From positions 62,001 to 126,000 of the forward strand of contig NZ_VZOV01000007.1 of assembly GCF_008801915.1 (NCBI RefSeq): DNA of 64,000 nucleotides, in the 5' to 3' direction. How positions within the stretch are numbered: position 1 is the first letter of the stretch; every line of letters begins with the position of its first letter. A program made the translations under genes and the position numbers. The notes beneath the pieces were generated by a model, which made no database searches, had not been told where the DNA came from, and was given only the letters and a program-made list of their open reading frames with translations. Positions 30,163 through 47,049 of the stretch are shown here, in pieces. Source of the DNA: Cupriavidus gilardii (GTDB lineage: Bacteria; Pseudomonadota; Gammaproteobacteria; Burkholderiales; Burkholderiaceae).

Positions 30163-30627
30163 ATGATCCGAACCATTCTGGTGGTCTGCATCGGCAATAC
30201 CTGTCGCAGTCCGATGGCGGAAGTCCTGCTGCGGCAGGCGCTGCCGACGTGCGAGGTGGCCTCCGCGGGACTGGCGCCGCCGGTCGGCGCGGCGGCGCAC
30301 CCGTGCGCGATCGCGCTGATGGCCGCCGAAGGGCATGAACTGCGCGGGCATCGCGCCCGCGTCGTCGACGCGCAGCTGGTGGACTGGGCCGATCTGGTGC
30401 TGGTGATGGACCTCGAGCAGCGCGACGAGGTCGAGCGCCGGTTTCCGGATGCACGCGGCCGCGTCTATCGCATCGGCGAATTCATCGCGGCCGACGTGCC
30501 CGATCCCTTCGGCGGTTCGCACAGCATGTTCGCCATCGCACTCGGCTTGATCAAGACGGGCATCGAATCCTGGTCGGTACGCATACGAGCCATTGCGCCG
30601 GCCGAATGTCACGGGGAGGCATCATGA
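30163..30627 (+). CDS. wzb: Low-molecular-weight protein-tyrosine phosphatase
   Basis: A 154-residue phosphatase. The P-loop is VVCIGNTCRSP (C-x5-R-S) at residues 8-18 and the general-acid aspartate is in VPDPFGGS. It would remove phosphate from the C-terminal tyrosines of Wzc, the cycle needed for high-molecular-weight polymer. It begins 8 nt after wza and its TGA overlaps the wzc ATG (ATGA). Length is normal for Wzb. Confidence 0.95.
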   Translation: MIRTILVVCIGNTCRSPMAEVLLRQALPTCEVASAGLAPPVGAAAHPCAIALMAAEGHELRGHRARVVDAQLVDWADLVLVMDLEQRDEVERRFPDARGRVYRIGEFIAADVPDPFGGSHSMFAIALGLIKTGIESWSVRIRAIAPAECHGEAS

Positions 30628-32867
30628 ACAGCAACAACATCCGGAGCACCCACGCCGAGCGCGCGGACGACCGCGACGGCATGGTCGATCTGACATCCTG
30701 GTTCGACGTGCTGGCGCGATACCGTTGGACCTTCCTGACGGTGGCGGGCCTGGTCATCGCGCTCGGTGCGATCTATGCGTTGATCGCACGCCCGGTCTAT
30801 CGCGCCGACATCATGGTGCAGGTGGAGGAGAGCACCAACACCACCGCGGCGACCAATCGCGTGGCCGCGCAGATCTCGCCGGTGATCGAGGTCAAGTCGG
30901 CCGCCTCCGCCGAGATCGAACTGCTGCAATCGCGCATGGTGGTCGGGCGCGCCGTCGACAACCTGATGCTGAACGTCGAGGCGTCGCCGCGCTACTTCCC
31001 GGTCATCGGCCGCGCGATCGCGCAGAACAACAGCGAACTGTCGCGGCCGGGGCTGTTCGGTTGGGGCGGCTTCGCCTGGGGCAGCGAATCGATCGCGGTC
31101 AGCGAGCTGACGGTGCCGGCCGAGATGGACGAACGCAGGATCACGGTCACCGCGCTCGGCAACGGCGAATACCGCGTCGGCTTCGACAGCGATCCGGCCC
31201 GCGCCAACGGCAAGGTCGGCGAGCCGCTGACCGTCAAGACCGCCTACGGCCCCGTCAACCTGACCATCAGCAAGCTCGACGGCCGTCCCGGCGCGCAGTT
31301 CACGCTGCGCCATCTGCCGCGCCTGGCCGCGATCGCCCGCCTGCAGCAGCAGCTGCACATCATGGAGCGCGGCAAGCAGAGCGGCGTGATCGGCGTCACG
31401 CTCGAAGGCGATTCGCCGCAGCTGACCGCGGCGATCCTCAACGAGATCGGCATGGAGTACGTCGAGCAGAACGTCCGCCGCAAGGCCGCGGAAGCGGAGA
31501 AGTCGCTCGAATTCCTGCAAGGCCAGATGCCGCAGCTGCGCCAGCAGGTGGAGGCCGCCGAATCGCGCTATAACGCGATGCGCAACCAGCGCGGCACGGT
31601 GGATCTGAGCGAGGAATCGAAGCTGATCCTGGCGCAGTCGGTGCAGATCCAGACCCGCTTGCAGGAACTGAAGCAGAAGCGCCAGGAACTGGCGATGCGC
31701 TTCGTCGGCGACCACCCCAGCATCACCGCGATCGACGGCCAGATCGACAGCCTGACCGCGCAGCTGAACGGCGTCACCGGCCGCATCCAGCGCCTGCCCG
31801 ATGTCGAGCAGAACGTGCTGCGGCTGATGCGCGACGTCAAGGTCAACACCGAGCTCTATCAGGCCCTGCTCAACGACGTGCAGCAGCTCAAGCTGATGAA
31901 GGCGAGCAAGGTCGGCACCGCGCGCCTGGTCGATCCGGCCAACGTGCCGCTCAAGCCGGTGCGGCCGAACCGCCCGCTGATCGTCGCGGTGGCGGTGGGC
32001 CTGGGCGTGCTGGCCGGCCTGCTGATGGTGGTGGTGCGCCGCTCGCTCGATGGCGGGCTGACCGACGCCGACGAGATCGAGCAGCAGACCGGCCTGACGG
32101 TCTACGCGACGATCCCGCTGAGCCAGCAGCAGACCCGCAAGTTCGGCGGCGCCAAGCCGCTGCCCGGCCTGCTCGCGCTGCAGGAGCCCGAGGACCCGGC
32201 GATGGAGAGCCTGCGCAGCTTCCGCACCGCGCTGCAGTTCGCGCTGGTCGGCAGCCGCAACCGCATCGTGGTGATCACGGGCCCCGCGCCGGGCGTCGGC
32301 AAGTCGTTCATCGCCGCCAACTTCGCCGCGATCCTCGGCGCCGGCGGCAAGCGGGTCGCGCTGGTCGACGCCGACCTGCGCCGCGGCGGGCTGAACCACC
32401 GCTTCGGCTCGCGCCGCTCGCCGGGCCTGAGCGACGTGCTGCTCGGCACGCCGCTGGACAAGGTGGTGCAGCGCCAGGTCGCGCCGGGGCTGGACTTCAT
32501 CCCGACCGGGGCGCAGGCGCCGCAGCCGGCCGACATGCTGAACAGCCCGGGCATGGAGGCGCTGATCGACGAGCTGAAGGCGCGCTACGACGTGGTGCTG
32601 ATCGATTCGCCGCCGGTGCTGGCGGCCGCCGATGCCGGCATCCTGGCCAGCCGGGCGGGCGCGGTGTTCCTGGTGGCGCGCGCCGATGTCACCACCGCCA
32701 GCGAACTGCAGGCGACCGACAAGGCGATCCGTCATGCCGGCGGCGACGTCAAGGGCGTGCTGTTCAACGGCCTGCACGTCGAGGGCCGCTGGTACCGCTC
32801 GCACTACCACTTCGGCAAGTATCGCTATATGAACCAGTACAGCGCGATCAAGGCCAGGCGAGCCTGA
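30624..32867 (+). CDS. wzc: Polysaccharide co-polymerase tyrosine autokinase
   Basis: A 747-residue PCP-2a protein: Wzz-like N-terminal domain with a membrane helix near residue 40 and another near 440, a periplasmic coiled coil between, and a cytoplasmic BY-kinase. The kinase shows Walker A GPAPGVGKS, Walker A' LVDADLRRG and Walker B VLIDSPPV, and ends in a tyrosine cluster (five Tyr in the last 27 residues, within WYRSHYHFGKYRYMNQY). It controls chain length and couples polymerisation to export through Wza. GGGGAGG precedes the ATG. A strong terminator follows. Confidence 0.95.
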   Translation: MNSNNIRSTHAERADDRDGMVDLTSWFDVLARYRWTFLTVAGLVIALGAIYALIARPVYRADIMVQVEESTNTTAATNRVAAQISPVIEVKSAASAEIELLQSRMVVGRAVDNLMLNVEASPRYFPVIGRAIAQNNSELSRPGLFGWGGFAWGSESIAVSELTVPAEMDERRITVTALGNGEYRVGFDSDPARANGKVGEPLTVKTAYGPVNLTISKLDGRPGAQFTLRHLPRLAAIARLQQQLHIMERGKQSGVIGVTLEGDSPQLTAAILNEIGMEYVEQNVRRKAAEAEKSLEFLQGQMPQLRQQVEAAESRYNAMRNQRGTVDLSEESKLILAQSVQIQTRLQELKQKRQELAMRFVGDHPSITAIDGQIDSLTAQLNGVTGRIQRLPDVEQNVLRLMRDVKVNTELYQALLNDVQQLKLMKASKVGTARLVDPANVPLKPVRPNRPLIVAVAVGLGVLAGLLMVVVRRSLDGGLTDADEIEQQTGLTVYATIPLSQQQTRKFGGAKPLPGLLALQEPEDPAMESLRSFRTALQFALVGSRNRIVVITGPAPGVGKSFIAANFAAILGAGGKRVALVDADLRRGGLNHRFGSRRSPGLSDVLLGTPLDKVVQRQVAPGLDFIPTGAQAPQPADMLNSPGMEALIDELKARYDVVLIDSPPVLAAADAGILASRAGAVFLVARADVTTASELQATDKAIRHAGGDVKGVLFNGLHVEGRWYRSHYHFGKYRYMNQYSAIKARRA

Positions 32868-33738: not shown

Positions 33739-35592
33739 TCAGCGCAGCGACTGGCGCAATGCCGGCGAGGCGCTCGGCGAAGTTGCCGGCAACGTTGCCG
33801 GCGGCATCGCCGATGCCATCTCCACCGGCGCATCGAACGCCGCCAGATGCCGCATCAGACAAGCGGCGAATTGCGCGCGGCTCTCGGCCAGAAACAGCGA
33901 ATGGTCCAGCCGCGGCAGCACATGAGTGCGGATGCCGCTCAGCTGGGCCAGCGCCTCCAGATGCCGGCCGAAGCGCGAGCGCGCTTCCTCCAGGCCGATA
34001 TCCCCCGCCCCATACAGCAGGTCGACGCGCACGCCGCGGCGTTGCAGGCTCTGCATCGCTTCGCGCGCGTAGGCATCCAGATCGTTCGCGCCCCGCTTCG
34101 AGCTGCCCCTCGCGCGCCCGCCAAACAGCCGGCGCGCCAGCGCCGCGGCATGCGGCCATGGATCGATCTCGCCGCGCAGCAGCCGCAGCCATTGCGCCGG
34201 ATTGCGCGCCGCGGCCAGATAGACGCGTGTCGATTGCAGTTGCGCATCGGCATCATCCGCACCGTCCGCGCCGTCCCCACCGTCCCAGCGGAATTTCAGC
34301 AGATTGGCGAGCACCAGCCCATCGATCACCGCCCCGGCCAGCGCCGCCTGCAGCGCGATGAAGCCGCCCGAGCAAACCCCGCCGACGACCACGCGCCGAT
34401 ATCCGCGCGCCCTCAGCCAAGCCACTGCCGCCGCGACATCGCGCGCCGGCTGTTCGCCATAGAGCGCCGCAATGCGCATCGTGCGCGCCGCCAGCGGACT
34501 GTCGCCAAGCGCCGATACGTCCAGCCGCAATGCCGCCACGCCGGCGGCAGCGAGCTGGCGCGACAGCGTGACGAACAGCCGGCAGTCGCCGACGTGGTGA
34601 TTGCCGCCGGTGTTCGGAAACAGCACTGCGGTGGCGGTGGCAGAGGCCTCGGCTGATGCCATGGTTTCGTCACCACCGCCCGGCGTGCACAGCAGGCCGA
34701 ACTGGCGACCGCCATCGAGCCACACCGGCTGCTCGACCGCTGCGTCGAGCCGCAGCACCGCATCGCCGGCGACATGGCTGGAGGGCCGGCCACGGCGCGC
34801 GACCGATGCGGCGGGGCCCAGCCATTGCGCGATCTGCTGCCACGCCTGCTCGGGGACGCTGCTGTTCTCGGCCGAACGCATCATCGCGGGATACTCGTCG
34901 AAGTCGAGCCGCGTCACCTGCGCGCCCTGCGCACGATAGCGGCCCGCCAGCGCGGCGACCGGCGACCCGGCGCCGGGCCACGCATCGAGCAGCAGCATGC
35001 GCGGCGCGGGACAGACCGCACGGCGTTCGAGCCGCAGGCTCTCGAGCAGGGCCACCGCGTCGGACGGCAGCCGATAGCCCAGCACCTCGCAGGCACCGTC
35101 GCCCGGCGGCGCGACCGGAATATCGGGGATCGCGTTATTGCACCAGCTGCTCTGCAGCGCGCGCAGCTCGCGCAGATAACCGCGGCCCGTCACCGGGGGC
35201 GCCAGCAGGATCAGTCCATCGGCGCGCTGGCCGCCGTCGGCGGCCATCGCCTCGGCGGCCAGCACCGCGAGCGTCGCGCCCAGGCGCAGGCCGCACAGCA
35301 CCACGCGCTCGACGCCGGTATGCGCGCGCAGCGTCTGCGCAGCGCGCACGATGCTGTGCGCACAGATGCCGAGCCGATCGGGACCGTCCTCGCTGCCCGC
35401 GGAATCGCCGCAGCCGGGATAGTCGAAGCGCAGCACCGGCATGCCGGCGCTGGCGAGGTCGTCGGCCAGATGCCGCCACGCGCGATGCGACCACATCGCT
35501 TCGTGACCCCAGGGCGCGCACAACACCACGCCGGTTGCGCCAGGGCCCGGATGCAGCCAGCCGACGCAGCGGTCGAACGCCACGCGTTTCAT
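33739..35592 (-). CDS. Tandem alpha/beta hydrolase (exosortase-system-associated hydrolase 1/2-like fusion)
   Basis: A 617-residue protein made of two alpha/beta-hydrolase domains. The first (about 1-260) has VLCAPWGHEAMWSHRAWRHL and the elbow CGLRLGAT, where the usual nucleophile is replaced by Arg, as I recall for the exosortase-associated hydrolase 2 group. The second (about 280-590) has the elbow GGVCSGGF with Cys at the nucleophile position and a late histidine in LPRLDHSLF. In EPS/exosortase loci these occur as two neighbouring genes; here they are fused. No exosortase is visible. GGGGGAAG precedes the ATG. Substrate unknown; de-acylation of a lipid or sugar intermediate is possible. 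Confidence 0.75.
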   Translation of the reverse strand: MKRVAFDRCVGWLHPGPGATGVVLCAPWGHEAMWSHRAWRHLADDLASAGMPVLRFDYPGCGDSAGSEDGPDRLGICAHSIVRAAQTLRAHTGVERVVLCGLRLGATLAVLAAEAMAADGGQRADGLILLAPPVTGRGYLRELRALQSSWCNNAIPDIPVAPPGDGACEVLGYRLPSDAVALLESLRLERRAVCPAPRMLLLDAWPGAGSPVAALAGRYRAQGAQVTRLDFDEYPAMMRSAENSSVPEQAWQQIAQWLGPAASVARRGRPSSHVAGDAVLRLDAAVEQPVWLDGGRQFGLLCTPGGGDETMASAEASATATAVLFPNTGGNHHVGDCRLFVTLSRQLAAAGVAALRLDVSALGDSPLAARTMRIAALYGEQPARDVAAAVAWLRARGYRRVVVGGVCSGGFIALQAALAGAVIDGLVLANLLKFRWDGGDGADGADDADAQLQSTRVYLAAARNPAQWLRLLRGEIDPWPHAAALARRLFGGRARGSSKRGANDLDAYAREAMQSLQRRGVRVDLLYGAGDIGLEEARSRFGRHLEALAQLSGIRTHVLPRLDHSLFLAESRAQFAACLMRHLAAFDAPVEMASAMPPATLPATSPSASPALRQSLR

Positions 35593-35683: not shown

Positions 35684-35763
35684 GCCCGCTTCACGCCTTG
35701 CCCGCTTCACGCCTTGCCCGCTTCACGCCTTGCCCGCTTCACGCCTTGCCCGCTTCACGCCTT
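35684..35763. repeat. Five-copy 16-bp tandem repeat over the kinase stop codon
   Basis: Five perfect copies of GCCCGCTTCACGCCTT run from 35684 to 35763. On the minus strand one copy contains the TGA that ends the tyrosine-kinase-like gene, and further TGAs fall in each copy with the frame shifting by one base per unit. It begins 2 nt from an iteron. Confidence 0.9.
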
Positions 35764-38133
35764 GCCCGCGGCGGCCGCGACCGGACGCTCGAGCGCACGG
35801 GCGGCCGGTGTCGCGGGCGGCAGCGGCATGCCCAGATACGGATTGATGGTGGCGAAGTCCGCGCGGTTGCTGCGACGCTGCGCCACGCCGTTGATGATGC
35901 CGCCCGCGATCCGCGCATCGGCGCGCGCCAGCCGCTTGAGCGTGTCGTCGACCTGGCCGGGCAGCGTCACGTCGGCACGCATCACCAGCAGCGTCGAGCC
36001 GGCCAGGCTGGCGATCAGCATCGCGTCCGCGACCGACAGCACCGGCGGCGTATCGACGATGACCAGGTCGAACCGCTCCTTGCACTGCTGCAGCGCGTCC
36101 TTCAGCGTCGGCAGCATCAACAGCTCCGACGGGTTGGCCGGCGTCGCACCGGCACCGAGGATGCACAGCCCCGCGACCACGGTGGGCTGCACCGCCGCGC
36201 CGACCGGAATGCGGCCGGCCAGCACATCGGACAGGCCCGGTTCGGCGGCCTGGCCAAACCACGTCGATACCTTGCCGCGCCGCATGTCGGCGTCGATCAG
36301 CAGCACCCGCTGCCCGGCCTCGGCGAACAGCACCGCAAGATTGACCGCGGCGAAAGTCTTGCCGGCGCCGGGCGCGGGGCTGGTGATCGCCAGCACGCCA
36401 TCGGGCGCGCCGCGCAGGCCGAAGTACAGCGAGGCGCGCACGCTGCGCAAGCCTTCGACCGCCAATGCGTGCGGCGAGCGGCGCGCCAGCAGGAAGCGGT
36501 CGTGCAGGCCATTGCCGGTGCGGGCGCCGGCCTGCGGGTCGGCGCCGCCTTGCGCCTCGGCCAGCGCCGTGCCGGGCGCCGGTGCGGCCAGCCGCTGGCG
36601 CGCAGCGTCCGCCAGCCCCATTGCCGCCATCGCACCGAAGCGCCGCTCGAGTTCGGCCTGGCGCTCGAGTTCGGCCTGCTCGTCGCTGAAGGCGACGTCG
36701 CCAAGCATCGACAGCCCCAGGCGCGCCTCCGCTTCGTTGGCATCGGCGACCACGGGTTTCACGCGCCGGCGCAGCATCACGCCGCCGATAGCCAGCGCCA
36801 GCGCCGCCACGCCGCCTGCCACCGCGGCCGGCCACGGGCCGATACCGACCGGCACGGTCGACGCAGCGGCCGCATCGACGACGCGCACCGCGCTGCTGCG
36901 GTCGGCCTGCACCAGCGACAGCTGTTCGATCTTGCGGCGCAGGGTCATGTACATGTCCTCGGCCACCTTGACGTCGCGCGTCAGCGCCACCGATTCGCGC
37001 TCGGACAGCGACAGGTTCTGCATGCGCTCGTCGAGCTCGCGCCGCTCGCGGATCAGCTGCTGGATCTGGCTGTCGACGGTCTTCACCTCGTTGGCATCGG
37101 TGGTGAAGCGCTGCAGCAGCTTGGTACGCTCGAGCCGCAGCGCGGCGATCTGGCGCTGATATTCCATGCTGCCTTGCAGATACGACTGCGCATCCTGCGT
37201 CGGCTGGATCGAGCCCGAGCGCGAGCGATAGCGCGTCAGCGCCGACTCCGCGCGCTCGAGCTCGGCCTGCACGCGCGGCAGCTCGGCCGCGAGGAAAGCC
37301 AGCGATTCGGCCGCGTCGCCGCGCCGCGCGCTGGTCTGCCCGCGGATATAGCCGTCGGCGATGCCGTTGATCAGATCGGCGGCCTGCTTGCGATCGCCGC
37401 TCTGCCACGACAGCCGCACGGTGCCGCCCGGCATTTCGCTGACCTTGAGCTGGCTCGCGATCGCATCGACCGTCGCGACCGGATCGCGGCGCATCAGCGT
37501 GAAACGCGTGCCCGGCCGCGCGTCGATGCGCGAGATCAGCACCTCGACGCCATCGACCGCGGCCGACTCGCCGACGCGCCCTTCGAGCAGCGTACGGTCG
37601 GCATCGCTGAGGCGGAACGCGCCGCCGCTGAGCACCTCCAGCGTCAGCGGCTTGTTCAGCAGCCGCTCGGGCACCGCGAGCGTATCGAGCGCGATGCGCT
37701 CGCCGCCCCACGCATAGCCCATTCCCGGCGGCCAGGCACCGCGCACCTGTCCCGGCTCCGACAGCCGGGCCGCCAGCGCACCGACCAATGGCGCGCGTAC
37801 AGGCTCGGCGGTGATGCCGAGCCGAAGCTGCTCGATCACCGGCGCAGCCACCGCGCGGCTCTTCAGGATGCTGGCGTCGAAGCCGGCGGCCGGCGCCGAT
37901 GGCGCGCCCGGCGCGCCGCTGGCGGCAACGTCGGGCCGCGCGACCTGGATCAGCGCCGCGGCTTCGTAGCGCGGCGGCACCGTCAGCGCCGCCAGCCCGG
38001 CCACGGCCGCGCCGGCCAGCGTCGCACCGACCAGCAGGCCGGCGCGATCCTGCAGCGCACGCGCATAGCCGGCCGGCCGTTGCGGCACCACGTTGGGAGC
38101 CGGCATCGTTCCGGCGAAAGACAACCTGTCCAC
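35755..38133 (-). CDS. Second Wzc-like polysaccharide co-polymerase/BY-kinase
   Basis: A 792-residue Wzz/Wzc-like protein with membrane helices near residues 35 and 430 and a coiled-coil periplasmic region between. The cytoplasmic ATPase part has SPAPGAGKT (Walker A), LIDADMRRG (A') and LVIVDTPPV (B). Unlike the Wzc at 30.6 kb it has no C-terminal tyrosine cluster; only one Tyr (INPYLG) lies near the end, so autophosphorylation control may be absent or altered. The GTG start at 38133 has AGGAG 7 nt upstream; the frame opens slightly earlier at another GTG. A 16-bp tandem repeat covers its stop codon. Confidence 0.88.
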   Translation of the reverse strand: MDRLSFAGTMPAPNVVPQRPAGYARALQDRAGLLVGATLAGAAVAGLAALTVPPRYEAAALIQVARPDVAASGAPGAPSAPAAGFDASILKSRAVAAPVIEQLRLGITAEPVRAPLVGALAARLSEPGQVRGAWPPGMGYAWGGERIALDTLAVPERLLNKPLTLEVLSGGAFRLSDADRTLLEGRVGESAAVDGVEVLISRIDARPGTRFTLMRRDPVATVDAIASQLKVSEMPGGTVRLSWQSGDRKQAADLINGIADGYIRGQTSARRGDAAESLAFLAAELPRVQAELERAESALTRYRSRSGSIQPTQDAQSYLQGSMEYQRQIAALRLERTKLLQRFTTDANEVKTVDSQIQQLIRERRELDERMQNLSLSERESVALTRDVKVAEDMYMTLRRKIEQLSLVQADRSSAVRVVDAAAASTVPVGIGPWPAAVAGGVAALALAIGGVMLRRRVKPVVADANEAEARLGLSMLGDVAFSDEQAELERQAELERRFGAMAAMGLADAARQRLAAPAPGTALAEAQGGADPQAGARTGNGLHDRFLLARRSPHALAVEGLRSVRASLYFGLRGAPDGVLAITSPAPGAGKTFAAVNLAVLFAEAGQRVLLIDADMRRGKVSTWFGQAAEPGLSDVLAGRIPVGAAVQPTVVAGLCILGAGATPANPSELLMLPTLKDALQQCKERFDLVIVDTPPVLSVADAMLIASLAGSTLLVMRADVTLPGQVDDTLKRLARADARIAGGIINGVAQRRSNRADFATINPYLGMPLPPATPAARALERPVAAAAGKA

Positions 38134-38160: not shown

Positions 38161-38883
38161 TCACGCTTCGGCGAGGGCCGGCAGCAGCCGGTCGAATTCG
38201 CGCTTGACGAGCTTGTAGCATTCGCACGAATGCGCTTCGAGCCCATGACGATCGAGCACCGTGATATGGCCGCGGCTGTGGTGGATCAGGCCGAGATCCT
38301 CCAGCTTGCCGGCAGCCTCGGTCACGCCCTCGCGCCGCACGCCCAGCATGTTGGCGATGACCTGCTGCGTGATCACCAGCTCGTTGGTCGCCATGCGATC
38401 GAGCGCGAGCAGCAGCCAGCGGCACAACTGCTTGTTCAGCGAATGATGGCGATTGCAGACCGCGGTCTGCGCGATCTGCGTCAGCACCGCCTGCACGTAC
38501 AGCAGCGTGGCGCGCTGGATCGTCGGCGAGCGCATGAACTCCTGGCGCAGCGTGCCGGCCGACAGCCGGTATGCGAAGCCCGGCGTGCGGACCTCGACAC
38601 GGCATGGCATGGTGTCGCCACCGGTCAGCACCGGAATGCCGACCAGACCCTCGTTGCCGATCGCGGCGATTTCGGCCGTCGCGCCGTTCTCGAGCAGCGA
38701 CAGCATCGAGACGATCGCCGTGGTCGGAAAGTACACATGATGGATGCGTTGACCCGAGTCGGTGAGCAGTTGTCCCGCACGCATCCGTACCAGCTCCAGG
38801 TGCCCCGACAGCGTTTCCCATTCCTTGCGCGGCAGCGAGGCCAGCAGGTGGTTGACGTGCAAATCCGAACGTTGACCGATCAT
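38161..38883 (-). CDS. Crp/Fnr-family transcriptional regulator
   Basis: A 240-residue regulator: N-terminal cyclic-nucleotide-binding-like beta barrel (VYFPTTAIVSML, AAIGNEGLVGIPVLTGG) and C-terminal winged helix (ITQQVIANMLGVRREGVTEAAGKLEDLGLI). The cysteines are not arranged as an FNR iron-sulphur site, and the barrel lacks the classic cAMP signature, so the ligand is open. GGGAG precedes the ATG. It lies 27 nt upstream of the second Wzc-like gene on the same strand and probably heads that operon. It may link EPS production to an intracellular signal (inference). Confidence 0.88.
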   Translation of the reverse strand: MIGQRSDLHVNHLLASLPRKEWETLSGHLELVRMRAGQLLTDSGQRIHHVYFPTTAIVSMLSLLENGATAEIAAIGNEGLVGIPVLTGGDTMPCRVEVRTPGFAYRLSAGTLRQEFMRSPTIQRATLLYVQAVLTQIAQTAVCNRHHSLNKQLCRWLLLALDRMATNELVITQQVIANMLGVRREGVTEAAGKLEDLGLIHHSRGHITVLDRHGLEAHSCECYKLVKREFDRLLPALAEA

Positions 38884-39189: not shown

Positions 39190-41853
39190 CTAGGCGCTGT
39201 AGCCAAGTGGACGAGGCGCGTTCAGCGCGCGAATCTCACCCATCGGGATGGCCGCGCCTGCCAGACGGTTTAGGCCTTCCGCGGCGCGCCTGTCGTCGTG
39301 ACCCGGTCCGTCGTCGGCACGCAGCAGCACACGGCGGCTCGTACCGGGCGCGAGATGGAAGTAATCGCTTGCCGGCCGCAGGTTGGCATCGTCGATCTGC
39401 ACCCAGCGTGCGAAACGGCGCGCCGATATCGTCAGCCACCACTGGCCGTCGATGCGCTCGACCTGCGCGTGCAGCTCCGGCGGCGGCAACGCGGCGGCGC
39501 TGCGATCGGGCAGATAGAAGGCCTCGCTGACCACGTTGCCGTCGCCATCGCGCCACGCCGCATGGACCACGTCATGCAGGCGCGGGCCGAAGCGGTAGGC
39601 ATGGGCGAAGTCGAAGAACTGGCCCGCCAGTTCGGCGCCGCTGACGCATTGCACCGAGCGCGGCGCCAGCGTGAAGTCCCGCGTCACGTCGAGCAGCGGC
39701 GTCAGGCCGTCGCGCAGGCAACGCAGCTGCAGGCGCATCGGCTGCGCCACGGCGCTCTCGTTGATCAGATGCACGTGGATGCCGTTCAAGCCTTCGTCGG
39801 TGATCAGCGCCTGCAGCGGCTGCCAGACCTGGCGCAGCGCATGCCAGCCGGACTTGGGCCGGCGCAGCGCATCGACGATGCCCCAGCCGGCGCCGGGCAC
39901 CAGGTCCTGCCATTGCCATACCAGTCCTCCGGCGCAGCAGGAGCCGGCGCGGCGCCATTCGGCAAACACCTCGCTCATCAGCTCGGCGACCACCGCGCGC
40001 GAGCAATGCAGATAGCGCGCCGGATCCTCCCGGCGCAGACGCGCGGGATCGACCGCATAGAGCGACTGCAGGTAGAAGTCGCGCACGTCCTCGAAGTCCC
40101 AGCTTGCGCCGGCATCGCGCGGCACCGTGCGCTTCCAGCGTGGATCGTGCACCGGCGCGACGCCGGCCATCGTCTCGCGCAGCGTGCGCTCGCACGGCAC
40201 GTTGGCGAAGGCCAGGCACTCGGCGGCAAAGCGCACGCGCGCGCGCCGCGCATCGTCGAGCGGACGCTGGTAGGCGCCGACGCCGTAGTAGTGGCTGACG
40301 CCGCGATCGGGCTGGAACGGCCAGGCACCGCCGCTCGGCGAGTTGCGGACATAGGGCACATTGACGCCGTGCGCGGCAATGCCGTCGGGAATCAGCGTGT
40401 CGAACAGCGGCTGGCGCCACGCCTCGCGCGGGGCCCCGAGCATCGCCGCCTGCTGCTCCGCCTCGCTGCCGCCGCACAGCACCGCAAGGCTCGGATGGTG
40501 TCCATGCGCGGCGAGCCATTGGCGTACCTCGCGGCGTACGTCGTCGCGCAGCGAGGCGTCGGCATCGGTGCCGGCAGCGGAGGCAGGCCGGGTGCCATCG
40601 ATGTTCGAATAATCGAAGTTGGCGAACGCAAGGTCCTGCCACACCAGCAGGCCCATCGCATCGCACGCCGCGTGAAACGCCTCGCCCTGATAGCAGGTCA
40701 CGCCGCTGACGCGAATCATGTTCATGTTGGCTTCGCGCGCCTGCGCAAGCCACGCCGCACAGGTGTTCGCATCGGGCGCATGGCCGTGCAGGTCCAGGCT
40801 TGCCACGCAGGCGCCGCGGCAGAACACCGGTACGCCGTTGACGCGGACCACGAAGCCGCCATCGCTGTCGTCGACGTCGATCCGCCGGAAGCCGACCCGC
40901 GCGCAGTGCAGCGTCTGCATGCCGGCGCGCAGCGTGACGTCGTACAGCACCGGCTCGCCGTGCGTGTGCGGCCACCATTTGCGCACGCGGGGCAGCGATA
41001 CGCTGCCGTGCCAGATCGCGCCGTGCTGGGCGTCGTGCCGGCATGTCAGCGCGGCCTCGTGGCCGTCGACCTGCAGCGTCAGCGCGTCTTCGATCTGCGC
41101 GGGGACGCCGCGCAGCTGCACCGACACGACACCGTCGTCACCGTCCAGGCGCGCGCCGATCTCGCAGCGCGCCGCGGCGAGCGCCCGCGTCGCCGATGGC
41201 GCCGGCAACAGATCGATCTCGCGCCATGGCCCGACGGCGTGGACCGGCGGGCACCAGCCCGGCATATGGCCGAGCAGCGTGGTGCGGACATGGCGCAACG
41301 ATGGCATCGACACCAGCCGCGGCTTCCATCGCACCGGGCCGCGCCGCCCGCGCAACGCGCGTTCGAGCGAACGGAAGCACAGCGACAGCGTGTGGGTACC
41401 CGACAGCGTCAGCGCGATCTCGTGCTCGGCGAACATCGACCGGCTCTCGAGCATGCGCGTGCCGTCGAGCCACACCTCGCAGATCGTCGCGAGGCCGCGC
41501 AGCCGCAGGCAATGCAAGCCCTCGCCGGAGATCGGCGCGCGATACCAGTAATCGTGCCGGTGCAATGCGGGCGGCGCTTCGGCCTCCCAGCGGCCGGCCG
41601 CCTGCAGCGCCTGCGCGACCGTGCCGGGGACCGGTGCCGGCAACCAATCGCCGTCAGCCGGCAAGTCGAGCGGCGTGGCGATGGCATCGGCGTCGGTTTC
41701 CCGCATGCGCCATGGACCGGCAACAGGCTGCCGCACCAGCGGCCTGCCGAGCGGGATGGCCGTCGCCATCCGCTCGCACCGATCGGGCGCGGTCATCGCC
41801 GCGCCCGGGACGCTCACGGCGCCCGCGGCGTCAGGATTCACCCTCGCCGACAT
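39190..41853 (-). CDS. Glycoside hydrolase family 2 protein (beta-mannosidase-like)
   Basis: A protein of up to 887 residues with the GH2 layout: jelly-roll sugar-binding domain (about 40-230, APVPGTVAQALQAAGRWE), Ig-like domain, then the TIM barrel (NMNMIRVSGVTCYQGEAFHAACDAMGLLVWQDLAF). The acid/base glutamate is likely in VLCGGSEAEQQ and the nucleophile in RFAAECLAFAN, so activity is plausible. No signal peptide is seen, implying a cytoplasmic enzyme. The first ATG (41853) overlaps the DUF1839 gene by 23 nt; an ATG at 41796 is the alternative. It is last in the carrier-protein operon and may hydrolyse or trim a mannoside or fucoside (inference). Confidence 0.85.
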   Translation of the reverse strand: MSARVNPDAAGAVSVPGAAMTAPDRCERMATAIPLGRPLVRQPVAGPWRMRETDADAIATPLDLPADGDWLPAPVPGTVAQALQAAGRWEAEAPPALHRHDYWYRAPISGEGLHCLRLRGLATICEVWLDGTRMLESRSMFAEHEIALTLSGTHTLSLCFRSLERALRGRRGPVRWKPRLVSMPSLRHVRTTLLGHMPGWCPPVHAVGPWREIDLLPAPSATRALAAARCEIGARLDGDDGVVSVQLRGVPAQIEDALTLQVDGHEAALTCRHDAQHGAIWHGSVSLPRVRKWWPHTHGEPVLYDVTLRAGMQTLHCARVGFRRIDVDDSDGGFVVRVNGVPVFCRGACVASLDLHGHAPDANTCAAWLAQAREANMNMIRVSGVTCYQGEAFHAACDAMGLLVWQDLAFANFDYSNIDGTRPASAAGTDADASLRDDVRREVRQWLAAHGHHPSLAVLCGGSEAEQQAAMLGAPREAWRQPLFDTLIPDGIAAHGVNVPYVRNSPSGGAWPFQPDRGVSHYYGVGAYQRPLDDARRARVRFAAECLAFANVPCERTLRETMAGVAPVHDPRWKRTVPRDAGASWDFEDVRDFYLQSLYAVDPARLRREDPARYLHCSRAVVAELMSEVFAEWRRAGSCCAGGLVWQWQDLVPGAGWGIVDALRRPKSGWHALRQVWQPLQALITDEGLNGIHVHLINESAVAQPMRLQLRCLRDGLTPLLDVTRDFTLAPRSVQCVSGAELAGQFFDFAHAYRFGPRLHDVVHAAWRDGDGNVVSEAFYLPDRSAAALPPPELHAQVERIDGQWWLTISARRFARWVQIDDANLRPASDYFHLAPGTSRRVLLRADDGPGHDDRRAAEGLNRLAGAAIPMGEIRALNAPRPLGYSA

Positions 41854-42823
41854 AGGCCGCTAGCGCCGGCACCGCTGCCTCATAGCAGGCTTCCATCTGA
41901 TCGAGGCAATCCTGGCAGGGGTCGGGCCGGCGTCCGAGGATCGAGCGGATCAGCCGGAACTGCATCACCATCGCCTCGGACGCCAGCCGCTGGCACGCGG
42001 TGGCGATCGCGGCCGGCAATGGCTGTCCCTGCAGGCTGAGCCAGCGCAGGTACTTGCCGAGCAGCTCGAAATTGGCGCCCAGTTGACGCAGCACGTTGAA
42101 CGCGTACGGGTGGAAGGCCGGTTCGCCGCGTACCGCGAGTTCGTCCAGATGCTGCGGAAACACCTGCCGGTACGCCGCGATCGGGTTCTGCCGCGGGCGC
42201 CGCGCTAGATGCCGCCGCAACAGCGCCAGCGAGGCGCGCAGCAGCATCGGCCCGGACAGCGGCGGAAAGCGCCGCCGCACCACCTCGGCGTACGGGAACA
42301 GCAGGTGCGGATCGGCCTGCAGCTCGGGCAGCAGCCGGAACAGGCCGGCATAGTCGTCGCCGCGCGCGACGTGGTAGCCGTCGTTGTGGTAGTAGCCGAC
42401 ACCGCGCGCCTCGGGCATCAGCACGTCGATCCCGATGGTGGTCTTGGTGTGCTGGCGCCGGTACGACGTGGCGCGATTGTCGGGCAGGTAGTAACCGTCG
42501 ACTTCGAGCAGCACCACATGCCCGCGCGCGGTCTGCGTCGCCACATGGCGCTCCATCGCGTCGTACAGCGACAGCTCCTGCACCACCACGCCATAGAGAC
42601 GCTCCAGATCGTCGACCGGGTATTTGAAGAAGGTGAACTGGTCGCCCTCGAAGTCCTGCGCGACGGTGAAGGGCAGCGCCGCCAGCGGATCGAGCTGCCA
42701 GCCGTGCAGCAACTCGATCCACAGGTCGACATAGCAGTTGGTCTGCGGCCAGACCGCCTGCTCGGTATGCAGGACATGCGAGGCATGCACGGATGGCGCC
42801 AGCCGCCCGGTGCCGTCATACAT
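41831..42823 (-). CDS. DUF1839-family protein
   Basis: A 330-residue protein of the uncharacterised DUF1839 type: VWPQTNCYVDLWIELLHGWQ near the start, DFEGDQFTFFKYP, then VVLLEVDGYYLPDN and GYYHNDGYHVA. The conserved Cys, His and Asp/Glu residues hint at a cysteine-type transferase or hydrolase, and I infer a possible acyl or aminoacyl transferase from its constant neighbourhood. It overlaps the end of the amino acid:carrier-protein ligase gene by 8 nt and is followed by the GH2 gene with overlap, so it belongs to the same translation-coupled operon. The frame opens earlier, but this ATG is the natural start. Confidence 0.85.
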   Translation of the reverse strand: MYDGTGRLAPSVHASHVLHTEQAVWPQTNCYVDLWIELLHGWQLDPLAALPFTVAQDFEGDQFTFFKYPVDDLERLYGVVVQELSLYDAMERHVATQTARGHVVLLEVDGYYLPDNRATSYRRQHTKTTIGIDVLMPEARGVGYYHNDGYHVARGDDYAGLFRLLPELQADPHLLFPYAEVVRRRFPPLSGPMLLRASLALLRRHLARRPRQNPIAAYRQVFPQHLDELAVRGEPAFHPYAFNVLRQLGANFELLGKYLRWLSLQGQPLPAAIATACQRLASEAMVMQFRLIRSILGRRPDPCQDCLDQMEACYEAAVPALAAYVGEGES

Positions 42824-43829
42824 GGCGCAGTCCCAGCAGCTCGCGCACCTGGCCCGGCCAGCGTGCCAGCGCGAAACCATGGTGGCGCAGCAGCGCCAGA
42901 ATCAGCCGGTCGATCCCGAAGCCGACGCAGCCGGTATGGGCACGCCCGCCGTCGGCGGTGCGCAGCGGCCAGACCTCGGCGAAGTGATCCTTGTGGTAGT
43001 TGAAGCTCATGCAGGCGGTCGGTGGGGCGTCGTCGTGGATCGGAATCAGCAGTTCGAACTTCAGCTTCTGTTCGCGCTGGCCGTCGGCGACGATCTTGCC
43101 GCCGCGGCCGAAGAACGGGTCGTTGGCCAGATCGAGCCGCCAGGGCAAGGCCAGCTGCTGCGCCAGCGCACTGCCGCGCTCGATCCACTGCGTGCGGAAC
43201 GCGACGATCTGCTCGGCAGTGCCCAGCCGCACGTACTCGCGCATGCGGAACAGCTGCATGCGCGCCGGATCGACCGACGGCTCATGGCGGAAGCAGTACG
43301 ACAGCACGTCCACCACGCGGCCCTGGGGCGGCAGCGCACCGCGCGCGGCGATGACCGGATAGACCGGATAGCAGGCGGCCGGCGTCAGCACCACGCGCGT
43401 GGGCCGCTGCTGGTCGGCCCACTCCTCGCCGGCATCGAGCCGCGCCAGCAGCCGGTGATGGTCGCGATCGCTGCCGCAGAAACTGTGCACGGTGCCGGCC
43501 AGTTGCGGAAAGCTTTTCAGGTATTCGCTGGCTTCGAAATCCTGCCGTGCCATCGCCGGCGGAAAGCGCATCACCTCGGCCTGCTGGTCGGCGCCGAGCG
43601 CGCCAATGGCCGCGTTCAGCCCGTCGGCAATGGCCTCGAAGTCGGCGCTGCGGCCATACAAGCCGTCGACGCCGGTCGGGATCAGCAGGCCCGCCTCGAT
43701 CAGCGCCTGGCGAAAGCGCCGCTGCGCCGCCAGCGCGGCCTCCTCCGGTGGCCGGGACAGGCGCTGCGGCGGCGCCGCGGTGTCGGCAGGCTCGACGGCG
43801 CCACCTTGCTGGCCGCTCTGGTACTCCAT
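42816..43829 (-). CDS. Amino acid--[acyl-carrier-protein] ligase (class II aaRS homologue)
   Basis: A 337-residue homologue of the catalytic core of atypical seryl-tRNA synthetase without a tRNA-binding domain. Class II motif 2 is visible as LFRMREYV (residues 193-200) and motif 3 as GFGIDRLILALLRHHG (303-318). Cys153, Glu198 and Cys301 are placed like the Cys-Glu-Cys zinc site of this family. Characterised members (Bradyrhizobium Bll0957 type) activate glycine or alanine with ATP and load it on the phosphopantetheine of a small carrier protein, not on tRNA. A carrier protein gene is two genes upstream in the same operon. GAGGAG precedes the ATG. Confidence 0.9.
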   Translation of the reverse strand: MEYQSGQQGGAVEPADTAAPPQRLSRPPEEAALAAQRRFRQALIEAGLLIPTGVDGLYGRSADFEAIADGLNAAIGALGADQQAEVMRFPPAMARQDFEASEYLKSFPQLAGTVHSFCGSDRDHHRLLARLDAGEEWADQQRPTRVVLTPAACYPVYPVIAARGALPPQGRVVDVLSYCFRHEPSVDPARMQLFRMREYVRLGTAEQIVAFRTQWIERGSALAQQLALPWRLDLANDPFFGRGGKIVADGQREQKLKFELLIPIHDDAPPTACMSFNYHKDHFAEVWPLRTADGGRAHTGCVGFGIDRLILALLRHHGFALARWPGQVRELLGLRHV

Positions 43830-43840
43830 GCCGATTCTCC

Positions 43841-45076
43841 TCAATGCGAACGTTCGGCCAGCAGCAGGCTGGCGGTATTGGTCAGGATGCGGTCGTTGCT
43901 GATCATCAGCGGCGCGGACCACAGGTCGCGCAGATGGCGGCCCACGCTGAACGGCGTGCCGTGCTTGTAGCCCGCCATGCCGCAGATCAGCAGCGCGGTC
44001 TGCACCGCTTCCAGCGCCAGCGTCGACACGCTGGTCTTCAGGCCGTTCATTTCGGCGGCAAAGGCAAAGTCCGCGGAGACGGAACGGCCCGGCGTGTGCT
44101 GGCGGTAGTGCGCGAGCGCCATCTGCACGCGCGCCTCCATCGTGTCGATCATCGCCGCGGCCTCGGCCAGCCGCGTGGCCGACGGCGGCAGCGTGCCGGG
44201 CCGCGCGCGCGCCTGGCCCTGGAAGAAGGTCTTGGCCCGCTGCACCGCGTCGGCGGCGATGCCGGTCCACAACGCGCTCCACAGCATGTGCGACACCGGC
44301 GTCATGGTCGCGTCGGCGATCTCGCCGAACGGCACCGGCACGATCTGCTCGCAGGCGCCGCGCGCCTCCAGCCGGAAGCCGTTGCTGCAGGTGCCGCGCA
44401 TGCCCAGCGTGTCCCACCCGCTCGTGCATTGCAGCGTGCAATCGCCATCGAGCACGCAGACCAGTACCTGGTCGGACTGCGGCGCCTCCGCATGACGGCG
44501 CGCGGTGGCGAGAATCACGTCGGCCTGCGCGCCGTACGAAATGGTCGGCGCCATCTTGACCAGATGAAAGCGCCCGCCGTCCGTCGCCACCGCGCAGCCG
44601 CTGGTGCGCAGCGCGCCGCCGGTCGACTGTTCCGAGGTCGCCGAGGCCAGCAGCAACTGGTCGGCCGCGATGCGCGCGAGCAGCCGCTCGTGCCAGATGC
44701 TGCCGCGCGCATGGGCGACCAGGCAGGCGACCTGGATCTGGTGCATCGCGTAGATCATGCCGGTCGCCGCGCAGGCGCCGCCGAGCACGCGGCAGATCGC
44801 CGCGATGGTATCGAGCGACGCGCCGCCGCCCCCGAGCTCTGCCGGCACCATCGCACCGAGCAGGCCGCGCTCGCGCAACGCCGCGAACGCCGCTTCGGGA
44901 AATGCCGCCTCGCGGTCGACGCGATCGGCCTGCGCCGCGGCAAGCGGCACCACCTCGCGCGCAGCGGCCAGGGCATCCCGCGGCGGATGCTCCGGCTGCG
45001 GCGCATCGTCCCGCCCCCGATCGGCGGCAGCGTCGTGCGGGTGGGGCTGCACCGCATGCGCCGCGAACGCGTTCAT
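43841..45076 (-). CDS. Acyl-CoA dehydrogenase-like flavoprotein
   Basis: A 411-residue acyl-CoA dehydrogenase-fold protein. LLGAMVPAELGGGGASLDTIAAICRVLGG, ASATSEQSTGGALR and WDTLGMRGTCSNGF are family landmarks for FAD and substrate binding. After a roughly 40-residue charged lead the domain is complete through the C-terminal helical bundle. The classical active-site Glu of fatty-acid dehydrogenases is not evident to me. Its ATG overlaps the stop of the carrier protein gene (ATGA), so its natural substrate may be an acyl or aminoacyl group tethered to that carrier rather than CoA (inference). Confidence 0.88.
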   Translation of the reverse strand: MNAFAAHAVQPHPHDAAADRGRDDAPQPEHPPRDALAAAREVVPLAAAQADRVDREAAFPEAAFAALRERGLLGAMVPAELGGGGASLDTIAAICRVLGGACAATGMIYAMHQIQVACLVAHARGSIWHERLLARIAADQLLLASATSEQSTGGALRTSGCAVATDGGRFHLVKMAPTISYGAQADVILATARRHAEAPQSDQVLVCVLDGDCTLQCTSGWDTLGMRGTCSNGFRLEARGACEQIVPVPFGEIADATMTPVSHMLWSALWTGIAADAVQRAKTFFQGQARARPGTLPPSATRLAEAAAMIDTMEARVQMALAHYRQHTPGRSVSADFAFAAEMNGLKTSVSTLALEAVQTALLICGMAGYKHGTPFSVGRHLRDLWSAPLMISNDRILTNTASLLLAERSH

Positions 45077-45324
45077 GCCGCCTCCTGCTGCTGGCGCAGA
45101 TAGACGATCGCGTCGGCCAGCGACTGGATGCTGCGGAACAACTGGCGCGTCAGCATTCGGTCCGGGATCTCGATATCGAAGGCGTTTTCGATGGCCAGCA
45201 TCACATGCACCGTGGCGAGCGACGACAGACCGGCTTCGTAGAGGTCGGCCTGGTCGTCCAGCGTGTCCGCTGGCACCTCGAGCCGGCCCACCTCCGCCAG
45301 GATCGTGCGTAGGGTGGCTTTCAT
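45073..45324 (-). CDS. Acyl carrier protein
   Basis: An 83-residue carrier protein. The phosphopantetheine serine is Ser35 in YEAGLSSLATVHVM (the usual GxDSL has Ser instead of Asp before it), and the helical pattern and acidic character (IENAFDIEIPDRML) fit ACP. A strong GGAGAGGAG lies before the ATG. It is the first gene of the operon ACP, acyl-CoA dehydrogenase, amino acid:CP ligase, DUF1839, GH2, and is the likely partner of the ligase. The D-to-S change in the motif also occurs in specialised carriers and need not stop modification. Confidence 0.9.
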   Translation of the reverse strand: MKATLRTILAEVGRLEVPADTLDDQADLYEAGLSSLATVHVMLAIENAFDIEIPDRMLTRQLFRSIQSLADAIVYLRQQQEAA

Positions 45325-45432: not shown

Positions 45433-46845
45433 TCAGAATGCGCTCTTGCCAGTCCAGCCGTGCAGCGCGGTGCGCGCGATGATCCGCAGGTCCAGCTGGA
45501 AGGACCAGTTGCGGATGTAGTAGATGTCGAACTCGATGCGGGCGCGCATCTTCTCGACCGTGTCGGTCTGTCCCCGCAGGCCGTTGATCTGCGCCCACCC
45601 GGTGATGCCGGGCTTGACGCGATGGCGCAGCATGTAGCGGTCGATCAGCTCCTTGTACATCTCGTTGTGTTCGAGCGCGTGCGGGCGCGGACCGACCACC
45701 GACATCTCGCCGCGCAGCACGTTGAAGAACTGCGGCAGCTCATCGAGGCTGGTACGGCGCAGGAAGCCGCCGATGCGCGTGACACGCGGATCGTTGCGTG
45801 TCGCCTGCGTGACGCCGCGGTCCTGGTGGACCACCATCGTGCGGAACTTGAAGACGTCGAACGGCTTGCCGTCGATGCCCAGGCGCTTCTGCCGGAACAG
45901 CACCGGCCCGGGGGAAGACAGCTTGACGCCGATCGCGATCGCGATCAGCAGCGGCGACATGCCGAGCAGCGCGACCGCGGCGAACACGCGATCGAAGCTT
46001 GCCTTGAGCAGGCCGGTGATCCGCGAATCGGGCGGGCTGTTCAGATCGATAACCGGCAGGCCGAGGAATTCGCTGAAGCGATGGCCCAGCAGCTCGACCG
46101 ACATGATGTCGGGCACCCAGCGAATGTCGACCAGGTCGTTGCGGAACTGGTAGACCACGTCGCACAGATCGCGGCACGCCGCCATCGGCAGCGTCAGCCA
46201 GATCTCGCGCACGTCGTGGCTGCGCACGAAGCGCGTGACGTCGCTCATCTCGCGCAGGATCGGCACGCCGGACGGCAGCGCATCGTCGTCGTGGTCGCAG
46301 TAGATGCCGACCACGTGATAGCCGGCCTCGCGAATGCGCTGCACGCGCCGGTACATCTCGTTGCCGAGCGGGCCGTAGCCGAAGATCAGCACGCGCTTGG
46401 CATTGATGCCCTGCTGCCGCACATTGCCCAGCAGCTGGTACAGCACCAGCCGCGAGCCGACCAGCGCCAGCGAGACGGCGCCGAACCAGGTGGTCGACCA
46501 CAGCCGCGACACCGCGCCGATCTGATGCATCAGGTAGGCCAGCACCAGGCCGCTGACGGCCACCAGGCTCCATGCCGCCAGCGTGCGCAGCCCGAGGGCG
46601 GCGCGGCTGCGGCCGCGCCACGATTCGTAGAGTCCGCAGGCAGGGAACACGATCAGCGCGGCGACCGCGCAGAACGCGGTCAGGAAGCCGTGCACCGGCG
46701 CCGCCGATGCCAGTCCGCCTTCGGGAAACCAGAATTCGCCGACCAGGATGCCGCAGACGCCCACCGTCAACGCATCCGAGACCCGATACAGCAGTTGCAG
46801 CGCTGTCTGCCGCTCGACGACCGCTTGCGCGCTTGCCGTTGCCAT
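45433..46845 (-). CDS. wcaJ: Undecaprenyl-phosphate sugar-1-phosphate transferase (WcaJ type)
   Basis: A 470-residue polyprenyl-phosphate hexose-1-P transferase. The N-terminal half has four to five membrane helices and a CoA-binding-like Rossmann domain (RVLIFGYGPLGNEMYRRV). The C-terminal catalytic domain shows KRLGIDGKPFDVFKFRTM, SLDELPQFFNVLRGEMSVVGPRP and WAQINGLRGQT. It transfers glucose-1-P (or galactose-1-P) from the UDP-sugar to undecaprenyl phosphate, starting the EPS repeat. GGGGAGAGG precedes the ATG at 46845. It lies just upstream of the carrier protein operon with a 108-bp gap, so it may be co-transcribed with it. Confidence 0.93.
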   Translation of the reverse strand: MATASAQAVVERQTALQLLYRVSDALTVGVCGILVGEFWFPEGGLASAAPVHGFLTAFCAVAALIVFPACGLYESWRGRSRAALGLRTLAAWSLVAVSGLVLAYLMHQIGAVSRLWSTTWFGAVSLALVGSRLVLYQLLGNVRQQGINAKRVLIFGYGPLGNEMYRRVQRIREAGYHVVGIYCDHDDDALPSGVPILREMSDVTRFVRSHDVREIWLTLPMAACRDLCDVVYQFRNDLVDIRWVPDIMSVELLGHRFSEFLGLPVIDLNSPPDSRITGLLKASFDRVFAAVALLGMSPLLIAIAIGVKLSSPGPVLFRQKRLGIDGKPFDVFKFRTMVVHQDRGVTQATRNDPRVTRIGGFLRRTSLDELPQFFNVLRGEMSVVGPRPHALEHNEMYKELIDRYMLRHRVKPGITGWAQINGLRGQTDTVEKMRARIEFDIYYIRNWSFQLDLRIIARTALHGWTGKSAF

Positions 46846-47049
46846 GACCCTCTCCCCTTGCTGCCCGTCGATGCCGTGCGTCGGCATATCGCGAACATCG
46901 TCGCGCGCGGGTCGGCGCAGGGTCTGTTTGCTCCCCCACACAGGTGAAGGCCGTGCGCCGCGGTCGCCGGTGCGGTGGCGGGTGTTGCCGGTGTTGCGGG
47001 TCTTTTGGGCTCTGTGGGTCTTGTTGCGCGTCGGTCCTGTGCGCGTTCT

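Follow-up and report, generated by a model that had tools for sequence, protein, structure and literature searches.

A conserved carrier-protein cassette of Cupriavidus gilardii and its possible role in attaching an amino acid to a cell-surface glycan precursor

The DNA analyzed here, called the window, is a stretch of 64,000 nucleotides (nt) of Cupriavidus gilardii (GCF_008801915.1; contig NZ_VZOV01000007.1, positions 62,001 to 126,000 of the forward strand). This report concerns five coupled genes on its minus strand, which lie in an exopolysaccharide (EPS) locus and may together place a small amino acid on a glycan precursor. They encode a carrier protein (ACP), a flavoprotein, a ligase resembling class II aminoacyl-tRNA synthetases (aaRS), a protein of family DUF1839, and a GH2 glycosidase, and were found where an earlier sequence-only reading had placed them. 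Survey loci and genomes are indicated by L and G numbers.

Five coupled genes and their protein families

45073..45324, minus strand: ACP, acyl (aminoacyl) carrier protein, 83 amino acids (aa), predicted attachment residue Ser35 (NF005480, 128.4 bits, cut-off 72)
43841..45076, minus strand: flavoprotein of the acyl-CoA-dehydrogenase fold, probably oxidizing a carrier-bound aminoacyl group (Pfam acyl-CoA dehydrogenase N- and C-domains)
42816..43829, minus strand: amino acid:[carrier protein] ligase, class II aaRS-like, Bll0957 family (NF005479, 518.6 bits)
41831..42823, minus strand: DUF1839 protein, predicted papain-like carrier-protein-dependent condensing enzyme (PF08893, E 1e-137)
39190..41853, minus strand: GH2 beta-mannosidase-like glycosidase (Pfam GH2 N-domain and Ig_mannosidase)

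The junctions are as had been described: an ATGA overlap of ACP and flavoprotein, an 11-nt gap 5' of the ligase, an 8-nt overlap of ligase and DUF1839, and an overlap of DUF1839 and GH2 of 23 nt, provided that the upstream ATG of GH2 is its start. The 4-nt overlap of ACP and flavoprotein recurs in 75 of the 86 loci that have the two genes called near each other on the same strand (start codons picked by script). Among the best 80 of at least 588 candidates, the named DUF1839 loci closest to the window are from C. cauae (99 percent protein identity) and C. gilardii (98 percent).

Residue conservation was read from alignments of the window protein with part of a non-redundant set: A3, DUF1839 (40 of 41 sequences); A4, flavoprotein (35 of 37); A5, ligase (27 of 30); A6, GH2 (31 of 32); A7, ACP (24 of 37); A8, a double hydrolase treated below (17 of 19).

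Assignment of the ligase to the Bll0957 type was borne out by NF005479, ‘amino acid--[acyl-carrier-protein] ligase’ (cut-off 357), and by matches to the Bll0957 structures (E 1.6e-93 and 3.6e-91); Pfam gave no match for it at E 0.001. Cys153, Glu198, and Cys301 are present in 28/28 aligned rows and align with Cys131, Glu176, and Cys279, which we take to be the zinc ligands of Bll0957, if the crystal chain bears a 20-residue tag. The ACP belongs to the Pfam PP-binding family, matches DltC models below cut-off only, and has Ser35 in 25/25 aligned rows. The residues expected to be needed by ligase and carrier are thus kept throughout both alignments, which supports the roles proposed for them. 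GH2 matches beta-mannosidase structures (E 1.1e-29); Glu464 and Glu545, presumably the acid/base and nucleophile glutamates according to their motifs, are found in 32/32 rows.

Recurrence of the cassette and a second architecture

Two overlapping genome samples were surveyed, an order sample of 300 and a phylum sample of 398 genomes; genomes whose ligase match fell below the cut-off (3 of 11 and 16 of 44, respectively) were left out. DUF1839 was found in 7/300 genomes of the order sample and the ligase in 8/300, and in 16/398 and 28/398 genomes of the phylum sample; all DUF1839 genomes carry the ligase (7/7 and 16/16), and DUF1839 without ligase was never met in either sample. Hypergeometric tails for this co-occurrence, with relatedness ignored, are 2e-21 in the phylum sample and 2e-13 in the order sample. 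When both samples are pooled, the ligase lies about 130 bases or less from a DUF1839 copy in 19/19 distinct DUF1839 genomes, three of which (G402, G489, G538) were checked for this adjacency only; the ligase of G489 has an internal stop. The order ACP, flavoprotein, ligase, DUF1839, GH2 was found in 16/16 contexts read (the window, L021-L026, and L155-L163).

Further loci were taken from a pattern scan of named genomes, with gene order determined by tblastn on the best 80 of the candidates; the resulting 79 named loci overrepresent Burkholderiaceae, and some come from a genome already sampled (e.g., L022 and L055). The full five-gene order is present in 67/79. In L092 and L095 all five genes are present with DUF1839 inverted; L104 is cut by a contig end, L091 is the contig end of a second copy, and L101 has no GH2 match; in L029, L030, L053, L079, L081, L082, and L086 one or more cassette genes are in pieces or without match. 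These seven cassettes, incomplete or decayed, come from records of Cupriavidus, Paraburkholderia, Caballeronia, and Burkholderia. Of the 67 complete loci, three have one gene whose best match, as read by script, is interrupted by an in-frame stop (GH2 in L083 and L085, DUF1839 in L103). The genes that had been proposed to belong together are therefore regularly, not occasionally, adjacent: the five genes form a real unit, and chance adjacency is ruled out by the surveys.

A second architecture was observed beside this one. DUF1839 is absent from 12 of the 28 ligase genomes of the phylum sample. Nine such loci were opened: the flavoprotein adjoins the ligase in 9/9, a divergent carrier protein lies beside them in 7/9, and neither DUF1839 nor GH2 was found within the 18 kb read around them. 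No further conserved partner was detected in these nine loci except a response-regulator-type protein in at least five, by a scan that holds many spurious antisense frames. In the order sample's ligase genome without DUF1839 (G153, locus L027), the ligase likewise adjoins the flavoprotein, with a short match to a divergent ACP. Two architectures thus exist, with ligase and flavoprotein, usually with a carrier, as their common core. A clustering of neighbors over 35 loci was swamped by spurious GC-rich frames and was not used.

The DUF1839 protein and the flavoprotein

DUF1839 was classed as papain-like in PMC10318531, which suggests an acyl-CoA-dependent processing of glycans. The AlphaFold2 model of the window protein (41 aligned sequences) has a mean predicted local distance difference test (pLDDT) score of 92.1. 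Nineteen Foldseek matches were obtained at E 0.001 or better, all of them AziU3, CtaG, or CcbD. Alignment by VIA-align gave Z 19.5 for CcbD (root-mean-square deviation (rmsd) 3.5, 289 residues aligned), 18.1 for AziU3, and 17.8 for CtaG; the top 14 rows all belong to these three proteins (Z 16.8-19.5; 272-290 of 330 residues; rmsd 3.5-4.0), the next row has Z 8.1, and no peptidase among the 50 rows shown exceeds Z 6.6 or matches beyond the N-terminal part of DUF1839. The match to the three condensing enzymes covers both the papain-like core and the helical domain, at 10-13 percent identity; DUF1839 profiles run against the PDB sequences gave nothing convincing. The model thereby lends strong structural support to the transferase role that had been suggested for DUF1839.

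According to PMC12945683, CcbD forms an amide between a carrier-bound proline and the amino group of a thiooctose by means of a Cys-His-Glu triad; this is the reaction that the amide-forming role proposed below would require.

Candidate triad residues of DUF1839 are Cys30 (37/41 rows of A3), His146 (41/41), and Asp157 (40/41, one Glu), His and acid being placed by spacing alone; His125 is also present in 41/41 rows. PMC10318531 proposes a C(T/S)H motif instead. The exceptions at Cys30 follow a pattern. DUF1839 copies were counted by tblastn over 95 loci, of which 82 have a single copy and 13, all from Cupriavidus/Ralstonia-type genomes, have two; some loci come from the same or closely related genomes, so that losses of Cys30 are not independent events. 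The second copy is inverted and lies downstream of the Crp-like gene (L064, L066, L068, L069, L073, L076, L077, L084, L089, L093, L094, L096, L163). It has Cys30 in 13/13 loci, and the copy inside the cassette has Arg or Gln at this position in 12/13. Among the single-copy loci Cys30 is present in 81/82; for the one locus without it (L021, genome G158), a copy with the Cys is found on a different contig (L002). In all 13 cases of loss, the locus or genome thus also holds a Cys-bearing second copy; Cys30 is kept somewhere in every genome examined, as one would expect if it is catalytic. The Cys-less copies have no stop after the motif in the 12 loci covered by the motif scan and look like retained pseudoenzymes.

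The flavoprotein had been proposed to oxidize the aminoacyl carrier. Its pairing with the ligase in the nine loci that lack DUF1839 and GH2, seven of them with a divergent ACP, supports this part of the proposal: a common core of ligase and flavoprotein suggests the aminoacyl carrier, and not a sugar, as the substrate of the flavoprotein. The kind of oxidation is less settled. Dehydrogenases and monooxygenases match the AlphaFold2 model (pLDDT 90.0) alike, both at Z 39.0-42.1, so that the fold does not discriminate between them, and their sequence scores tie. The catalytic Glu of the medium-chain acyl-CoA dehydrogenase (MCAD) type is absent from its position, the one place examined, which was set by eye from the RD motif by comparison with the MCAD motif; position 392 is Ile or Val in 36/36 rows. 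Trp221, His263, Trp266, Trp270, and Asn394 are invariant (36/36). The Trp of the WDTLGMR stretch is present in the alignments shown of DszC, TdsC, KijD3, and DnmZ and absent from the two dehydrogenases shown; a Trp in a W-x-x-(L/I/M)-G-M-R stretch would be expected of a group-D flavin monooxygenase such as DszC, KijD3, or DnmZ. The flavoprotein may, by these residues, be a monooxygenase.

Glycan context, proposed route, and known systems

45433..46887, minus strand: WcaJ-type undecaprenyl-phosphate glucose phosphotransferase, directly upstream of ACP (TIGR03023, 527.4 bits, cut-off 410.75)
38161..38862, minus strand: Crp-like regulator, directly downstream of the five genes (Pfam)
35755..38091, minus strand: Wzc-type chain-length kinase (WZC_N, Wzz, GNVR)
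33739..35583, minus strand: double alpha/beta-hydrolase, sixth partner (NCBIfam exosortase-A hydrolases 1 and 2, both below cut-off)
10002-11228 and 15791-16792: GMD and GDP-L-fucose-synthase-like protein (profile cut-offs)

The EPS locus of the window encodes the WcaJ-type transferase, Wza, two Wzc-type kinases, ManC, GMD, several glycosyltransferases, a GDP-fucose-synthase-like protein, and a WcaF-like acetyltransferase just below its cut-off; the second kinase, at 30624-32867, was recognized by sequence match to Wzc. The view that this is a fucose EPS locus is supported and still unproven, GMD scoring above its cut-off and the GDP-L-fucose-synthase-like protein just under (472 vs 500 bits). 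Of the 67 complete named loci, 62 have an EPS marker (initiating transferase, Wza, or Wzc homologue) at about 10 kb or nearer, 58 a WcaJ-type homologue, and 59 a Crp-like homologue. The EPS link is firm in Burkholderiales and weak in some other lineages.

The double hydrolase had been overlooked. It resembles exosortase-A hydrolases 1 and 2 within one chain, both below the curated cut-offs (TIGR03100, 100.5 vs 168.45 bits; TIGR03101, 72.5 vs 202.75 bits). Its second half has a GxCxG motif, Cys404 (the Cys in 18/18 rows), Asp528, and His561; its first half is without the nucleophile Ser in the aligned rows. Relatives lie directly downstream of GH2 in L024, L025, L026, L155, and L156; the two genes overlap by 4 bases in 4 of 11 loci where both are close on one strand, and the hydrolase is found within about 10 kb in 26 of the 67 complete named loci. 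A Wzx-type flippase is fused to it in one frame of 1108 aa (L160:14373-17699), overlaps it in L161, and in L159 sits between GH2 and the hydrolase on the other strand. A fusion of GH2 and hydrolase considered for L025 was rejected, as the GH2 frame has its stop at 11380, ahead of the start of the hydrolase frame. An EpmA/EpmB-like pair (class II synthetase and lysine-aminomutase-like radical SAM protein) was seen just upstream of the cassette at L160:4881-6991.

Export signals were looked for by simple hydropathy (13-residue mean above 2.0 within the first 45 residues). They were found in 1/85 GH2 proteins, 0/93 DUF1839 proteins, 0/37 hydrolases, 1/97 flavoproteins, and 2/96 ligases; the window controls Wza and PAP2 gave 2.29 and 2.62. 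As no consistent signal is present, the chemistry should be cytoplasmic. The suggested trimming by GH2 is thereby weakened: its catalytic glutamates are kept, but trimming of an exported polymer is unlikely.

We propose, with a probability of about 0.5, that the cassette is a cytoplasmic carrier-protein system that puts a small, probably oxidized, amino acid on an amine of a cell-surface glycan precursor. The ligase would activate the amino acid with ATP and load it on the phosphopantetheine of the ACP, as its relative Bll0957 suggests; the flavoprotein would oxidize the aminoacyl-S-ACP, monooxygenation being somewhat likelier than dehydrogenation; DUF1839, with its fold and Cys30, would take over the acyl group on that cysteine and pass it to a sugar amino group on the cytoplasmic side, in a ping-pong amide synthesis like that of CcbD; and before export, GH2 and the double hydrolase would process either the glycan or an intermediate that was loaded wrongly. 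The product in the window would be part of an EPS that probably contains fucose. A further elaboration is speculative and, in our view, doubtful: that the carrier-held amino acid undergoes N-hydroxylation or becomes an oxime or alpha-imine, that DUF1839 attaches this oxidized residue as an undescribed polysaccharide substituent in mostly soil- and plant-associated bacteria, and that the Cys-less paralogues of the 12 Cupriavidus/Ralstonia-type loci are regulatory heterodimer partners.

Several observations weigh against the amide proposal. A likeness of fold to CcbD is no proof of the same reaction, and DUF1839 gave no sequence match to CcbD at E 10; such an invisible link agrees with the statement in PMC4351081 that no database similarity was found for LmbD and CcbD. 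Five of the 67 complete named loci have none of the three EPS markers, only 5 of the 19 cassette genomes have an initiating transferase within 10 kb, and no EPS genes were found among the few neighboring open reading frames scanned in L025, L026, L099, L100, and L155. No full-length DegT aminotransferase occurs within 60 kb of the cassette among the matches listed for the 19 genomes (full-length first; some contigs broken). Nor is another amine source tied to it, PIG-L being near in one of the 19 genomes (about 10 kb, G654) and polysaccharide deacetylase near in two (G546, about 5 kb; G604, 15-20 kb), with about 0.9 of the latter expected within 20 kb in 19 genomes by a rough density estimate. 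Without a consistent amine-making gene, the group that accepts the amino acid may be a hydroxyl, or may not be on a sugar at all. Two individual proteins were recorded in this respect: a polysaccharide deacetylase at L159:14591-15283 (G546:C17:108755-109108), which is flanked by the flippase-like gene and the double hydrolase and might provide the amine in that lineage; and, in the EPS locus of the window (24970-25731), a YdjC-like putative deacetylase below the chitin-disaccharide-deacetylase cut-off, a candidate amine-maker.

The best-surviving alternative keeps the same loading with a hydroxyl acceptor, giving an ester-linked amino acid on the glycan, like the D-Ala of teichoic acid or the Gly of lipid A. 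It is favored by the lack of a linked amine-making gene and by the WcaF-like acetyltransferase of the window, which suggests that O-acylation may occur; both ester and amide formation are within the reach of papain-like enzymes. The solved structures closest to the DUF1839 model, however, belong to enzymes that act on amines (CcbD and, presumably, CtaG and AziU3), and we consider the ester unlikely. Rather improbable is a cassette that makes a small molecule or glycolipid and merely sits in EPS loci, the EPS context being lineage-specific. The five loci without EPS genes among the scanned neighbors would fit it, and so would the nine DUF1839-less loci, where the ligase-flavoprotein pair has no additional conserved partner; GH2 in 16/16 cassettes read in the genome samples, the EPS markers of the complete named loci, and the hydrolase-flippase fusion speak against it. 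That DUF1839 is a thioesterase or amidase, clearing wrongly loaded acyl groups or editing the glycan, is very improbable: its fold is mostly hydrolytic and PMC10318531 suggests glycan processing, but it matches three carrier-protein condensing enzymes over most of its length, helical domain included, and peptidases in its N-terminal part only.

If the amide proposal is true, the decoration of polysaccharides in many Burkholderiales and some Alphaproteobacteria draws on an enzyme of the translation type, and a carrier-protein toolkit for placing amino acids on sugars is at hand. The amino acid:carrier protein ligases have solved structures and a measured activity but, as far as we found, no purpose that has been demonstrated; with CcbD as a solved structural relative, the candidate acceptor step makes this question experimentally approachable.

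The core idea is not new: it was printed in 2010 by authors whom we take to be Iyer and co-workers, and the sequence-only reading comes close to it. Their note in proofs (PMC2922099) describes the same gene neighborhood and predicts an amino acid amide-linked to a cell-surface sugar amine, with a linked uncharacterized open reading frame (example Atu2574, taken here to be the DUF1839 protein) as amide ligase and the aminoacyl group probably monooxygenated by the redox enzyme. The description of the downstream use of these ligases as unsolved thus holds as regards experiments, no test of the cassette having been found in the literature searched (most subscription journals lie outside its coverage), but not as regards prediction. 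No fold was given for the uncharacterized frame in that note; as far as searched, the structural match to condensing enzymes, the Cys30 pattern, the hydrolase as sixth partner, the two architectures, and the survey counts are new.

Among known systems, the window ligase is clearly of the same family as Bll0957 of Bradyrhizobium. The bll0957 gene and bll0958 (acd, acyl-CoA dehydrogenase) are consecutive in the list of PMC10888616, so that a ligase gene stands next to an acyl-CoA dehydrogenase gene as in the window. From this list, the Bll0957 locus appears to be of the DUF1839-less architecture. Such loci have a divergent ACP (7/9) and neither DUF1839 nor GH2, whereas the window has one co-directional unit in an EPS locus. 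The loading activity of Bll0957 was reportedly measured in a 2010 PNAS study of amino acid:[carrier protein] ligases.

CcbD, CtaG, and AziU3 share their fold with DUF1839 over most of its length, and CcbD has a Cys and a carrier-protein partner as DUF1839 has (PMC12945683). In the lincosamide synthetases CcbD and LmbD the amino acid is selected by the adenylation domains CcbC and LmbC, whereas the cassette has an aaRS-like ligase; the product there is an antibiotic.

AlmEFG (glycine on lipid A) and Dlt (D-Ala on teichoic acid) resemble the cassette in logic only: ligase, carrier, and transfer to an envelope glycan. They use an ANL-type adenylating ligase and transferase families of their own, whereas the ligase of the cassette is aaRS-like and its candidate transferase belongs to PF08893.

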